Shown: positions 7,581 through 64,000 of the stretch, in pieces | How positions within the stretch are numbered: position 1 is the stretch's first letter | Layout of the letters: every line of letters starts with the position of its first letter | DNA from: Nitrospira sp. | Lineage (GTDB): Bacteria > Nitrospirota > Nitrospiria > Nitrospirales > Nitrospiraceae | Assembly: GCA_035968315.1 (NCBI GenBank) | Contig: JAVYIN010000005.1 | Coordinates: forward strand, 496,001 to 560,000 | Length of the DNA: 64,000 nt | Reading direction: 5' to 3' | Notes under the pieces: model-generated | Told to the model about the DNA's origin: nothing | The model's database searches: none | The model's input: only the letters and a program-made list of their open reading frames with translations | Position numbers and translations under genes: made by a program

Positions 7581-10500
7581 TTACGGAAAGGCGATAGCTT
7601 TGAGACTTTTGTAAACAGCTGTCATGGGTGACAGCAATGGCCAGTGCAATACCGCCAGTGAATCCTCGACATAGGCCGGAGTCCGCATTCCGTTCAACAC
7701 CGCCGTCACGCCCGGCGTGCTGGCCAGGACCCAGAGGGCTTTGCGCGACAGCGATTCGGCGCGGCATTCGGCCGGCAGGAGCGGATCGAGTGTGCCGGTG
7801 ACCAGGGCGGTTCGATGCCGGCTGCGCTCGGTCGCTTCCCGGCGCAGCCCGCGCAGCAGCGTCAGCAGCTCGGGCACGTATCGATCGCGCCAGGCTTCCC
7901 ATTGCTCGGCCATGGTCCCGGACAGATGGCGTGACAGGGCTTGGAGGACCTGGTTCACATGCGGCGCGATCATCTGATGTTCGATCTGTTCCCAATGCTC
8001 CAACCCTTGAATCTGCGGATGAATCCGTTCGAGTTCGTGTGCCCAATTGAAGAACTCCGACGGCACCATGCCTTGGCCGCTCTGTTGGACCGATGGAGCA
8101 ATCACCCGGCGATATTCCTCTTCCAATTCCGCGACGCGTTGACGCTGCGCGGGGAAATCCACCGGCTGATCTTCAAGCGGCAAATCGGCCAGACGGAGCA
8201 AGCCGCCCCGTCCGGCCGGCATGGCATTCAAGGGGCGATTCACTAGCACGGCCAGGTTCCTCTGCTGTGCGGCGTCCAGCACGGTCTGGCCGTTGTGTGC
8301 GCCGGTGTTTGCCACGAGGGCGGCGCCGGACTCGAAGAGATTCATGGGACATTGCAAGACTCTGAAATGGTGAGTGGCGTGGCCCGCTTGCTGCGCTGCG
8401 GCCTGTGCCGCCTGGAGCATGCGATCGAGCGAGGTGGCGTCCGGCTCATCCGGAGCGGACGTGACGGTATTGGACGAGACCCCATAGTAGGCAAGGCGCC
8501 TGGCTTGGACCTGGGCCTCAAAATAGCCAAAGGCTCGCTGTAACCGCTCGTAAAAGGCGTCCCGTAGGTGGGCAAGATTCCGCTCGCCGCGATGCGCCGC
8601 CTCCGATAAGAAGTATTCAGGATTGTGGAGGAGACAGACGTCTAGCGTCGCCAGACCCAAGCGATCCAGGGACAAAGCCAGTTGATCCGCGAGAAACTCG
8701 GGATGCAGGCAGTGCCAGATGCCGTCGCCGTATTTGACCATTTCCGGGTAGGCACGGCCGGACCGTTCCCGAGCTTCGGCCAGCTTCAAGTTGTCTCCCT
8801 GCACGTAGCCGATTTTGGAGATGATCACGACTTCCTCGCGCGAGATCCGTCCGGCTTTCACCAGTTCGGCCAGCACGGAGCCTACGAGGCGCTCGCTCTC
8901 GCCGTCCATGTAGTTGGTCGAGGTGTCGATGAGATTGCAGCCGCCAGCGAGGGCCTTCTTCAACGCGTCGCGGTGTTCCGCGGTTCTCGTATCCACCCGA
9001 TAGGTGCCGAAGCCCAGGCGCGAGATCGTCAGCCCGGTCGATCCGAGGGAGGTGAACCCATGCGCCAATGAACCGGATGGTGAAAGCCCGACCATGCGGG
9101 CGGCATAGGCCGCTGTGCCCTGCACGGTCGCGTGGCCGGACAACGGTGTGCCACGCAGGATATGGTGTGTGGTGCTCTGTGAGGCCTGGGTTTGTGGCCG
9201 ATTCGCACGCAGCCTGCCGGCCACAGCCTGAGCGTTGGTGAGAGGCTGCTGGCAACTGAAATTTCGGCACACATACAAAGCCGGTTGACCCGCTACCAGG
9301 GTTTTGCCTTGTAACAAGGGAAGGGTGGAGGTGGCATTCGGCCCAGTCATCGCCAGGATCCGATTCGGCAGATATTCGTCCGCGACCGCCCGTTGCAACG
9401 CCTGGAACTCTGCCTGCTGTTCGTCTCCCACCAGGGCCAATTCGAGGGGGCCTTCCGTCAAGAAATCGACGACGGCCAGGCTTTTGGCAAAGGCGCGGGG
9501 ATAGCGGGTGATCTGCCGCCCATAGGCGCGCACGGCGCCGATTGCGGCGTCACGCCAATCCTGCCGGTCGAAATGACCGGCCAGCCGCGCGAGCGCGGAG
9601 GCGGCGACGGCATTGCCGCTCGGTGTGGCGCCATCGGCTCCTTCGCGGCTGCGGAGGATGAGGGCCTCGTGCCCCTTGGCCGTGGTGAAAAACCCGCCCT
9701 GGTCGGGATCCAGAAAGTCTGTCACCATGTGCGCTGCGAATTGTGCGGCAGTCTGCAGATAGCGTTCGGAGGCGCCGGCTTCGTAGAGATCGATCAATCC
9801 TTCGGCCAAATAGGCGTAGTCTTCGAGATAGGCATCGAGATGCGCGCGCCCGGCCCGTGACGTGCGCAACAGTCGTCCGTCCTCTCGCGCATGGGTCGCC
9901 AGCAGGAAGTCGGCGGTGCGTTGAGCGGCCTCACGATAGCGCGGCTCGTGAAAGACACGGGCGGCCTCGGCCATGGCCGACAGCATCATCCCGTTCCAGG
10001 CAGTAATGACTTTGTCGTCGAGTGCGGGGGGAATGCGGAGCTGCCGTGCCCGATAGAGCAATGGCTTCACGCGGGCCGCGGTGTTCAGCAAGTCGTCTTC
10101 AGTCAAGCCGGTGTCCTTGGCCACCTCGGAGAGCGGGCGCAAGCGATGGGGGATGCTGCGGTGCTCCCAATTGCCTGCCTCGGTGATGTCGTACAACGCG
10201 CACCACCGCCTGGCGTCCTCCTCGTTCCCCACAGCGGCCAGCACCTCGGCCGGTGTCCAGACAAAGAATTTTCCTTCGACCCCTTCGGAGTCCGCGTCGG
10301 TCGCCGAATAAAAACCGCCAGAGGGACCGGTCATCTCTCTCAGTACATAGTCGAGGATGTCGCACGCCACCTGGCGATAGGTTGCGTGTTTCGTCACCTG
10401 ATAGGCCTCGACGTACACGCGGGCCAGGAGCGCATTGTCGTAGAGCATTTTCTCGAAGTGCGGAACCAGCCAACGGGCGTCGGTTGAGTAGCGCGCAAAG

Positions 10501-11270
10501 CCGCCGCCGAGGTGATCGTAGATGCCGCCCGCTGCCATCATGTCGAGGGTTTTGGTGACCATCGCCAGCGTCTGCGCATCGCCGGTTCGTCGATGACAGC
10601 GGAGCAGCAACGAGAGTCCGGCCGCCGGCGGGAATTTCGGCGCGCCGCCGAATCCGCCGAAGGTCTGGTCGAAATCCTCTTTGAATTGCGTGACCGCATC
10701 TTCCAGTGCGGATTCGCTGACTGAGATGGGGGAGGGGATACGGCCTTCGCCCTTCAGGCGCTCCGTCATCGTCCTGGCCTGTGAGCGCACACCGGCTGCG
10801 TCTTGTGTCCAATAGTCGGCAATCTTCTTGAGCAGCGTGGGGAAACCGGGGCGGCCCCAGCGATCTTCCGGCGGGAAGTACGTGCCGGCAAAGAAGGGCT
10901 CTTGATCGGGGGTCAGGAACACCGTCATCGGCCAGCCGCCCTGGCCGTGATTCATCGCCACGGTGGCAGCCATGTAAATTTCGTCCAGATCGGGCCGTTC
11001 TTCGCGGTCGACTTTGATGCAGATGAAGCTGGCGTTCATCAGCGCGGCAATCGTCTCGTTTTCGAACGATTCCCGCTCCATCACATGGCACCAATGGCAG
11101 GAGGAGTAGCCGATCGAGAGGAGAATAGGCTTGTGGGTTGCCTTGGCCGCCTTCAGGGCCTCCTCGCCCCAGGGATACCAGTCGACTGGGTTATAGGCAT
11201 GTTGCAAGAGGTAGGGACTGGTTTCTTGTGCGAGGCGGTTGGGCTGTCGATTGGATCCTGGTGTCTTCAT
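7581..11270 (-). CDS. DUF255/YyaL-type thioredoxin-domain protein fused to an aldo/keto reductase
   Basis: One 1229-residue open frame joins two families that are normally separate. Residues 1 to about 690 form the DUF255/YyaL (SPATA20-like) protein: a thioredoxin-like domain with [15 protein letters not shown] (CxxC) followed by an alpha/alpha-barrel region ([34 protein letters not shown]). From about residue 735 an aldo/keto reductase begins ([19 protein letters not shown]). Its tetrad is visible: Asp and Tyr in [14 protein letters not shown], Lys in IISKIGYVQ and His in [10 protein letters not shown]. No in-frame stop or obvious frameshift separates the parts. The substrate is unknown. A translational fusion is the simplest reading; an assembly artefact cannot be excluded from sequence alone. 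Confidence 0.88.
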
Positions 11271-11353
11271 GGCGTGGACCGTACCATCGCCTGGGAGAAC
11301 GGGTCAACGGCTTGACTGAGCGCCAAAAGACGGTTCGTAGGGGCACACAACAA

Positions 11354-11384
11354 AAAGGCCCGCGATCCGAAGATCGCAGGCCTT
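11354..11384 (-). terminator. intrinsic terminator of the small Lys/Glu repeat gene
   Basis: Inverted repeat AAAGGCC-CG-CGATC / GATCG-CA-GGCCTTT with a CGAA loop. On the minus strand it ends in CCTTTTTG, the U-tract expected for termination of the gene at 11434-11637. It also lies between that gene and the downstream fusion gene. Confidence 0.75.
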
Positions 11385-11407
11385 TCGAAAAACCAGAGGC
11401 ACGCACT

Positions 11408-11430
11408 GAAAACACCTCGAGGGTGTTTTC
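11408..11430 (-). terminator. second hairpin immediately after the repeat-protein stop
   Basis: Perfect inverted repeat GAAAACACC / GGTGTTTTC with a TCGAG loop starting 3 bases after the TAA. It stands in tandem with the intrinsic terminator, and the right arm ends in a T-rich run on either strand. It may stabilise the 3' end or act as an additional terminator. Confidence 0.55.
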
Positions 11431-11433
11431 GGA

Positions 11434-11637
11434 TTAGTGACCCTTCTTCTCTTCCTTCTTCTTCTCTTCGGCAAACACGACGTGGCCGCCCTTCTTCTCT
11501 TCCTTCTTCTTCTCTTCGCCGAACACCACCACGTGGCCGCCCTTCTTCTCTTCCTTCTTCTTCTCTTCGGCGAAGGACGGTGCGGTGAAGCTGATTGCCA
11601 CTGCCACTGCCATGATTGCCATCAACATGCTCTTCAT
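11434..11637 (-). CDS. small exported protein with three EEKKKEEKKG(GHVV) repeats
   Basis: The 67-residue protein is unlike any named family I recognise. Residues 1-23 form a clear signal peptide ending SFA, so the mature part is predicted to be exported. The mature part is three near-identical blocks: residues 24-40, 41-56 and 57-67, each beginning EEKKKEEKKG; the first two continue GHVVxF. The repeats are conserved at DNA level too (CTTCTTCTCTTC tracts spaced 51 and 48 bases), which suggests recent slippage. AAGGGGGAT upstream is a strong ribosome site. A good promoter and two terminator hairpins show it is an independent unit. The charge pattern and His could mean ion or polyanion binding, but that is a guess. 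Confidence 0.75.
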   Translation of the reverse strand: MKSMLMAIMAVAVAISFTAPSFAEEKKKEEKKGGHVVVFGEEKKKEEKKGGHVVFAEEKKKEEKKGH

Positions 11638-11695
11638 AGATCCCCCTTAAAGGTTTAGATTGTGTGCCCGTCAACGCCGGGCAAATTAGCCGTGT

Positions 11696-11724
11696 ACGGT
11701 AGACAAAATTCTTTCGATTGTCAA
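11696..11724 (-). promoter_or_regulatory. sigma-70-like promoter of the small repeat-protein gene
   Basis: Minus strand TTGACA (11719-11724), 17-base spacer, TACCGT (11696-11701). The predicted 5' untranslated region of about 50 bases contains GCCCG...CGGGC, a short hairpin (about 11667-11683), ahead of the ribosome site. Confidence 0.55.
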
Positions 11725-63523: not shown

Positions 63524-64000
63524 GTGTTCCCCGCGCGAGTGGGGATGAACCGGGAGACGGGAACTTCTCGCCGCTCTTAAACGCGTGTTCCCCGCGCGAG
63601 TGGGGATGAACCGCCCGCGTCACGATCACCGACAGCGGCGGGAATGTGTTCCCCGCGCGAGTGGGGATGAACCGCATCTGGCGTTGCCTCGTGGTCATGG
63701 TGACTCTGTGTTCCCCGCGCGAGTGGGGATGAACCGGTATAGATGCCGGCGGCATAGCTGTACTGGCCCGTGTTCCCCGCGCGAGTGGGGATGAACCGGT
63801 CATGAACCGCATGGTGGCCACGGAGGCGGAGTGTTCCCCGCGCGAGTGGGGATGAACCGGCGCGACTGCGGGAGCAGCACAGCCGGCTGGTGTGTTCCCC
63901 GCGCGAGTGGGGATGAACCGAAACCCTGCGCGGTGGATGGACTGCCGCTGATGTGTTCCCCGCGCGAGTGGGGATGAACCGTACACATTGCTTTTTTGCC
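63524..64000 (+). CRISPR. type I-E CRISPR array, eight identical 29-bp repeats visible (continues past right edge)
   Basis: Repeats begin GTGTTCCCCGCG and end GTGGGGATGAACCG, with CCCC/GGGG arms around an eight-base GCGCGAGT loop as in E. coli-type I-E repeats. Copies are at 63524-63552, 63585-63613, 63646-63674, 63708-63736, 63770-63798, 63831-63859, 63892-63920 and 63953-63981; all are identical. Seven complete spacers are 32, 32, 33, 33, 32, 32 and 32 bases; an eighth is cut by the edge. All are unique. The array is downstream of cas2 with the leader on the left, so the newest spacer is the first. Open frames on either strand of the array are artefacts. Confidence 0.98.

Follow-up and report, generated by a model that had tools for sequence, protein, structure and literature searches.

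A family of small exported lysine/glutamate-repeat proteins in Nitrospira: genes, control, and candidate function

In soils, waters, and treatment plants, nitrite is oxidised mainly by Nitrospira. The window, a 64,000-nucleotide stretch of Nitrospira DNA analysed here as a whole, contains a short and highly repetitive open reading frame, raising the question of whether such a frame encodes a real product and, if so, what that product does. Low-complexity proteins escape domain libraries, and the conservation of promoters and leaders can reveal such families. Four features of the locus matter most: the family has multiple paralogs, its sister copies carry sigma-54 promoter motifs, the leader hairpin covaries, and one paralog lies near nxrAB.

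The gene and its expression signals

The features of the locus, all on the minus strand, are as follows.

11434-11637, minus: coding sequence of the exported KE-repeat protein, 67 aa, the group A copy (from the open reading frame list and family conservation)
11569-11637, minus: signal-peptide codons 1-23, of which codons 2-18 are almost invariant family-wide at most synonymous sites
11437-11568, minus: mature part with three KE blocks, the units lying at about 11518-11568, 11470-11517, and 11437-11469
11640-11649, minus: ribosome binding site TAAGGGGGAT, read from the sequence; AGGGGG is similar in many relatives
11665-11683, minus: 5′ leader hairpin TGCCCG-gcgttga-CGGGCA, beginning ~6 nt past the inferred transcription start
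11696-11701, minus: -10-like TACCGT, found by eye and kept in most group A orthologs
11719-11724, minus: -35-like TTGACA, found by eye and kept in group A orthologs
11409-11429, minus: inverted repeat AAAACACC-tcgag-GGTGTTTT between the stop codon and the terminator, read from the sequence
11353-11386, minus: intrinsic terminator, a 15-pair stem followed by a T-rich tail (terminator scan and fold)

The translation of 11434-11637 consists of MKSMLMAIMAVAVAISFTAPSFA followed by EEKKKEEKKGGHVVVFG, EEKKKEEKKGGHVVFA, and EEKKKEEKKGH, i.e., a Sec-type signal peptide ending in APSFA and three EEKKKEEKK(GGHVVVFG) units. This confirms the exported 67-residue protein of three KE blocks described in the initial annotation. 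The repetition claimed for both protein and DNA is likewise borne out, as Tandem Repeats Finder reports a repeat at 11441-11574 with a period of 51, 2.7 copies, a 93% match, and a score of 233. The gene stands alone between a divergent DnaJ-domain gene upstream and a gene for a DUF255-thioredoxin/aldo-keto reductase fusion downstream. The latter (7581-11270, minus) encodes a 1229-aa protein in which a DUF255/thioredoxin domain is joined to an aldo/keto reductase domain (Pfam).

Among the expression signals claimed earlier, the ribosome site is present at 11640-11649. A simple scan upstream of the gene reported no promoter; by eye, however, TTGACA (11724-11719) and TACCGT (11701-11696), separated by a 17 nt spacer, form a candidate promoter, and most group A orthologs keep both motifs, in the form GTTGACTTT...TACCGT or GTTGAC(TTT)...TACCGT. 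A promoter of the gene's own is therefore plausible. The proposal of two tandem 3′ hairpins holds for one half. The terminator at 11386-11353 is very strong, with a z-score of -5.45 for the 88-nt fold, and a similar sequence also follows the N. moscoviensis copy. In contrast, the 11409-11429 inverted repeat does not appear as a hairpin in the predicted minimum-energy fold, which pairs its letters otherwise.

The family, its paralogs, and their control

The genome from which the window derives carries a second copy, on contig C9, that is 91% identical to the window copy. Matches occur in 41 of 59 relatives (own genome counted), including 33 of the 34 other genomes of the same genus. A 40-sequence profile finds the family, at E 1e-4 or better, in 76 of 79 Nitrospira-genus genomes and in 48 of the 49 high-quality ones; across the order, 155 of 235 genomes match at E 1e-3. 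N. moscoviensis NSP M-1 is among the genomes with family members. The repetitive frame is thus more than a chance occurrence, since its product is kept throughout the genus, and the earlier view that it is a real gene is upheld by this conservation in close relatives.

A filter on signal peptide and K/E content gathered 65 distinct proteins, all of which keep the signal peptide and the K/E repeats; proteins that failed the filter were read separately. The family signature is MK(S/R/H)xLMAxMAVAVA..AP(S/A)FA followed by KE blocks with GG(H/K), and the window protein carries it. Clustering of the 65 by neighbouring genes yields groups A (n = 11, the place of the window gene), B (n = 26), and C (n = 24), with four genes unplaced. 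Together with group D, in which KE/GGHVVVF units stand behind a different signal peptide, there are at least four paralog groups, three of them with a syntenic place of their own. Group B adjoins NUDIX and gcvT genes, and group C lies between tRNA-nucleotidyltransferase/galT genes on one side and, on the other, a downstream same-strand gene read as fibronectin-type (in both groups, names were read by eye from the sequences). The family genes look monocistronic in the loci examined. One locus (L085) shows a tandem duplication of the family gene (7662-7880 and 8001-8210), the second copy of which has no sigma-54 element. A neighbouring family, f2, has a Lys-rich exported relative that diverges further; upstream of it, too, a GG-N10-GC element was read by eye.

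The composition of the mature chain was compiled from 70 mature parts (the 65 filtered proteins and five of group D). Their residue fractions are K 0.30, E 0.18, G 0.16, D 0.09, and R 0.001. None contains Cys or Trp, and four have no histidine. Although more than half of the residues are charged, net charge lies between -3 and +4. This near-neutrality is not universal, because the f2 homologs are more basic. The expected variation in repeat number holds between species: mature length ranges from 29 to 58 residues, and unit counts differ. GGH recurs in most units, but related units can have Lys, Asn, or Tyr in place of His, and many units have ADTF or AETF instead of VVVF. An AlphaFold2 prediction based on 27 sequences has a mean pLDDT of 55, with the signal helix as the sole element, which fits an apparently disordered mature chain. 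Lysine is encoded by AAG at 93% in the mature parts, compared with 57% in five large open reading frames of the window. That group D keeps the KE/GGHVVVF units despite its different signal peptide points to selection on the mature part.

The groups differ in their upstream elements. A sigma-54 (-24/-12) element of the form GGCAY-N4..6-TTGCW precedes 23 of 24 genes in group B, 22 of 24 in group C, and three of the four unplaced genes, so that groups B and C together carry it in 45 of 48 testable genes. The test covered the 52 of 54 non-A genes with at least 100 nt upstream; the two omitted, both of group B, have less than 100 nt. Dinucleotide shuffles gave the element in a mean of 0.18 genes or fewer per group. 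It was found neither in the window copy nor in any of the 11 group A genes (0/11). Since group A lacks this element and instead conserves GTTGAC(TTT)...TACCGT, the window copy appears, from these motifs, to be a sigma-70-type sister of sigma-54 genes.

Groups B and C also share a dyad, TGAGGCRGTTTAG-N12-CYATTCYGCYACAG, located roughly 80-130 nt further upstream than the sigma-54 element. A pattern search of 59 genomes returned 21 matches in 19 genomes, all of the same genus, and none for the reversed control. Twenty of these lie directly upstream of a family gene; the remaining one sits at the end of a contig, so that any such gene would lie beyond it. The strict pattern misses the group B copy of the own genome, and degenerate sites elsewhere would escape it too. 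The dyad is read here as a putative enhancer-binding-protein site that may be private to the KE-repeat family. At one locus (L063, G021:C12, about 88071-88139), the dyad lies only ~31 nt ahead of the start codon; neither the sigma-54 element nor the leader hairpin is present, which looks like a deletion of the stretch that would hold the promoter. The upstream regions of group D (L049, L053, L057, L062, and L152) show no sigma-54 element by eye and share an inverted repeat like TTGGACAAA...TTTTGTCCATTG, possibly the site of another regulator.

A leader stem just past the inferred transcription start is common to groups A, B, and C. It is mostly TGCCTG/CAGGCA in the other members of group A and GTGCCA/TGGCAC, GTGCCG/CGGCAC, or GTACCGA/TCGGTAC in groups B and C. 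The best-stem score exceeds the shuffle mean in 58 of 60 leaders, and 53 of the 60 leader segments pass a core-stem test. For covariation, 38 of the 60 leaders were retained, after removal of the seven without a core stem, duplicates, and row L040. In these 38 distinct leaders, chosen for having the core stem, there are 15 double-sided changes vs 5.0 in shuffled sets (0/500), and pairing drops from 82% to 23-29% when slid by one position. Stem length and spacing vary while pairing stays, which favours RNA over a protein-binding palindrome. The z-scores of single-sequence leader folds are modest, at -1.4 for the window and -1.9 and -0.1 for two others. mRNAs of the ompA type carry a 5′-terminal stabilising stem-loop, likewise within about 6 nt of the 5′ end (a putative end in the KE-repeat genes) and likewise on the message of an exported protein. 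By this analogy, the hairpin, which starts near +4 to +6 whichever promoter type is present, may be a stem-loop that stabilises the 5′ end.

The signal-peptide DNA keeps rare GCA alanine codons and TTG leucine across the genus. GCA is used at Ala codons 7, 10, 12, and 14 in 56, 57, 58, and 53 of 65 genes, respectively; its share of Ala codons in five large open reading frames of the window is 8%. Codons 19-21 (Ala, Pro) vary freely. Gene conversion was considered as the source of this conservation. Within-genome paralogs are 87.1% identical over 66 nt, compared with 85.2% for A-B pairs from different genomes and 87.8 and 89.9% for orthologs (six genomes), giving no strong sign of it. As paralogs within a genome are not clearly more alike than orthologs, what acts on signal-peptide codons 2-18 looks like a constraint at the nucleotide level. 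Shared unit variants, e.g., PKEEKK in both G026 copies, suggest, for the repeat part alone, that conversion may occur now and then. The GGCA repeats of the signal-peptide codons complement the TGCC conserved in the leader stem, so an alternative pairing is possible.

Likeness to known families and the nitrite oxidoreductase neighbourhood

No Pfam, NCBIfam, or PADLOC family covers the window protein, and a PDB profile search returned no family (best E 0.47). Asr is an acid-shock envelope protein made under a stress regulator. Like the window protein, it is small, Sec-exported, lysine-rich, and repetitive, and it is disordered, as the window protein is predicted to be; unlike the window protein, a K/E polyampholyte, it is a basic repeat protein. 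The Asr model (NF033636) does not match the window protein at E up to 1 and gives a weak score with an f2-family homolog (18.2 bits, cut-off 50). The penta_MxKDx repeat proteins (TIGR02953) are also short with charged repeats, although the repeat differs, and only the f2 homolog matches them (14.9 bits vs 41). Among NCBIfam models, ExtJ (NF040942), a selenite/tellurite operon protein, comes closest to the window protein and aligns along the full length of the latter, at 20.1 bits vs a cut-off of 52.5; no selenite/tellurite operon is seen around the window gene. CopK (NF033793) scores 15.5 vs 123 bits.

At the RNA level, Rfam sX6 (RF02225) matches weakly but at full length across 11337-11659, the whole transcript, with 23.6 bits vs a gathering score of 40. 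In Xanthomonas, sX6, at first described as an sRNA, codes for a small protein (PMC5559785). The likeness is mostly one of layout, namely signal-peptide codons, K/E codons, and a terminator. The exact repeat strings are absent from the literature searched. The literature on Nitrospira sigma-54, proteomes, and small proteins, taken at the level of search results, gave no account of a KE-repeat family. The family is accordingly filed as an undescribed family of small exported low-complexity proteins.

The N. moscoviensis NxrB protein served as the marker for nitrite oxidoreductase (NXR), TIGR03478 having given 0 of 235 genomes above its cut-off. NxrB matches occur in 138 of the 235 order genomes. 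Among 66 genomes with compared positions, a group B gene lies 9.6-22.2 kb (about 12 kb) from nxrB on the same contig in 31; in three, a family gene and nxrB share a contig at a distance of more than 25 kb, and in 32 the nxrB contig carries no family gene. The distance between group B and nxrAB spans about ten other genes and may reflect plain synteny. The own genome has no NxrB match despite a completeness rating of 99.97%. Its contig C9, which holds the own group B copy, ends less than 1 kb past the gene that abuts nxrB in N. moscoviensis, and the own nxrAB was probably lost at an assembly break, with a multi-copy nxr operon breaking the assembly at the end of C9. Family f3 of the same order has NxrB and no KE-repeat family member at the thresholds used, and the same is true of genome G009. 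The KE-repeat protein is therefore not required for nitrite oxidation.

Many highly expressed Nitrospira genes have no functional category, according to one study (PMC6606698). The tag NITMOv2_2496 falls near 2338 kb of the N. moscoviensis genome by interpolation between bacterioferritin genes. The family genes of this genome (NZ_CP011801.1) lie at 1963.0 kb (group A), 231.7 kb (group B), and 2324.1 kb (group D); the group D position corresponds to a tag of ~2500 by ORF count (38 called and about two missed before tag 2541) or ~2481 by linear interpolation. Other exported ORFs are just as close and compete for the tag: one at 2319.9 kb for a protein of 135 aa, and some around 2337 kb that look lipoprotein-like. 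A literature search on neighbouring tags found nothing further. The identity of NITMOv2_2496 with the group D gene is possible, with the balance tilting against it.

Candidate functions

The family and the control signals of its genes are solidly established from sequence; function, promoter use, abundance, and location we infer. The reading favoured here, tentatively and at somewhat below an even chance, is that the gene product is a disordered polyampholyte, exported through Sec to the Nitrospira envelope, where it acts as an Asr-like or hydrophilin-like protectant. The window copy would be constitutively promoted, while the other main copies would be activated through sigma-54 together with an enhancer-binding protein. 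The polyampholyte would be made in quantity and exported to the periplasm or surface. There, the near-neutral K/E/G/D chain would work by physics, i.e., through hydration, the shielding of charge, and loose contacts with proteins or polymers, and, by analogy with hydrophilins or Asr, it could protect or organise envelope proteins. The conserved GGH(V/A)xxF motifs suggest something more than bulk charge. A near-universal, multi-copy exported family with a sigma-54 switch, a leader hairpin, and nxrAB synteny may be a component of the nitrifier envelope that has been overlooked, and this can be put to the test.

A periplasmic buffer for Cu, Fe, or Zn is an unlikely alternative, in which the His and Glu/Asp of the GGH units would bind metals for nitrifier enzymes. 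The presence of GGH in most units and the weak, below-cut-off likenesses to CopK and ExtJ speak for it; yet four of the 70 members have no His, none has Cys, Lys, Asn, or Tyr stands in for His in related units, and no metal gene is prominent among the recurrent neighbours (65-place table). The position of group B, which in 31 of 66 genomes is 9.6-22.2 kb from nxrB, would suit a periplasmic scaffold or companion of NXR, co-regulated with nitrite oxidation via the sigma-54 regulator. Such a role has a rather small chance of being correct: the window copy belongs to group A, which is elsewhere in the genome and has no sigma-54 element; f3 genomes carry NxrB without the protein; the dyad pattern is found at family genes only, and so not at nxr; and NITMOv2_2496 is not tied with certainty to a family gene.

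The short hydrophobic segments repeated between KE blocks, along with the export signal, could instead indicate an assembling surface or matrix protein (adhesin or amyloid-like) whose HVVVF strands polymerise between charged spacers. However, the replacement of VVVF by ADTF or AETF in many units, the lack of any strand in the predicted structure, and the lack of a prominent secretion partner gene nearby make this quite improbable. Least probable of all is a multi-copy precursor cut into short repeated peptides of a signal or bacteriocin-like kind. Near-identical units with dibasic stretches and a varying unit number are what such a precursor would have, but no peptidase, transporter, or immunity gene is prominent nearby, and PADLOC gives no match.

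A bolder extension of the envelope-protectant reading, and one with little likelihood, is that exported K/E polyampholytes are a hallmark of Nitrospira with a dedicated sigma-54 regulator of which they would be the sole targets. An abundant charged periplasmic phase would then support nitrite oxidation, and one member would be the exported protein whose transcript is, alongside those of nxrABC, one of the highest-ranking in N. moscoviensis.

At the end of the window, 63524-63981 holds a CRISPR-like array whose repeats (GTGTTCCCCGCGCGAGTGGGGATGAACCG) are about 29 bp long and recur at a period of roughly 61.
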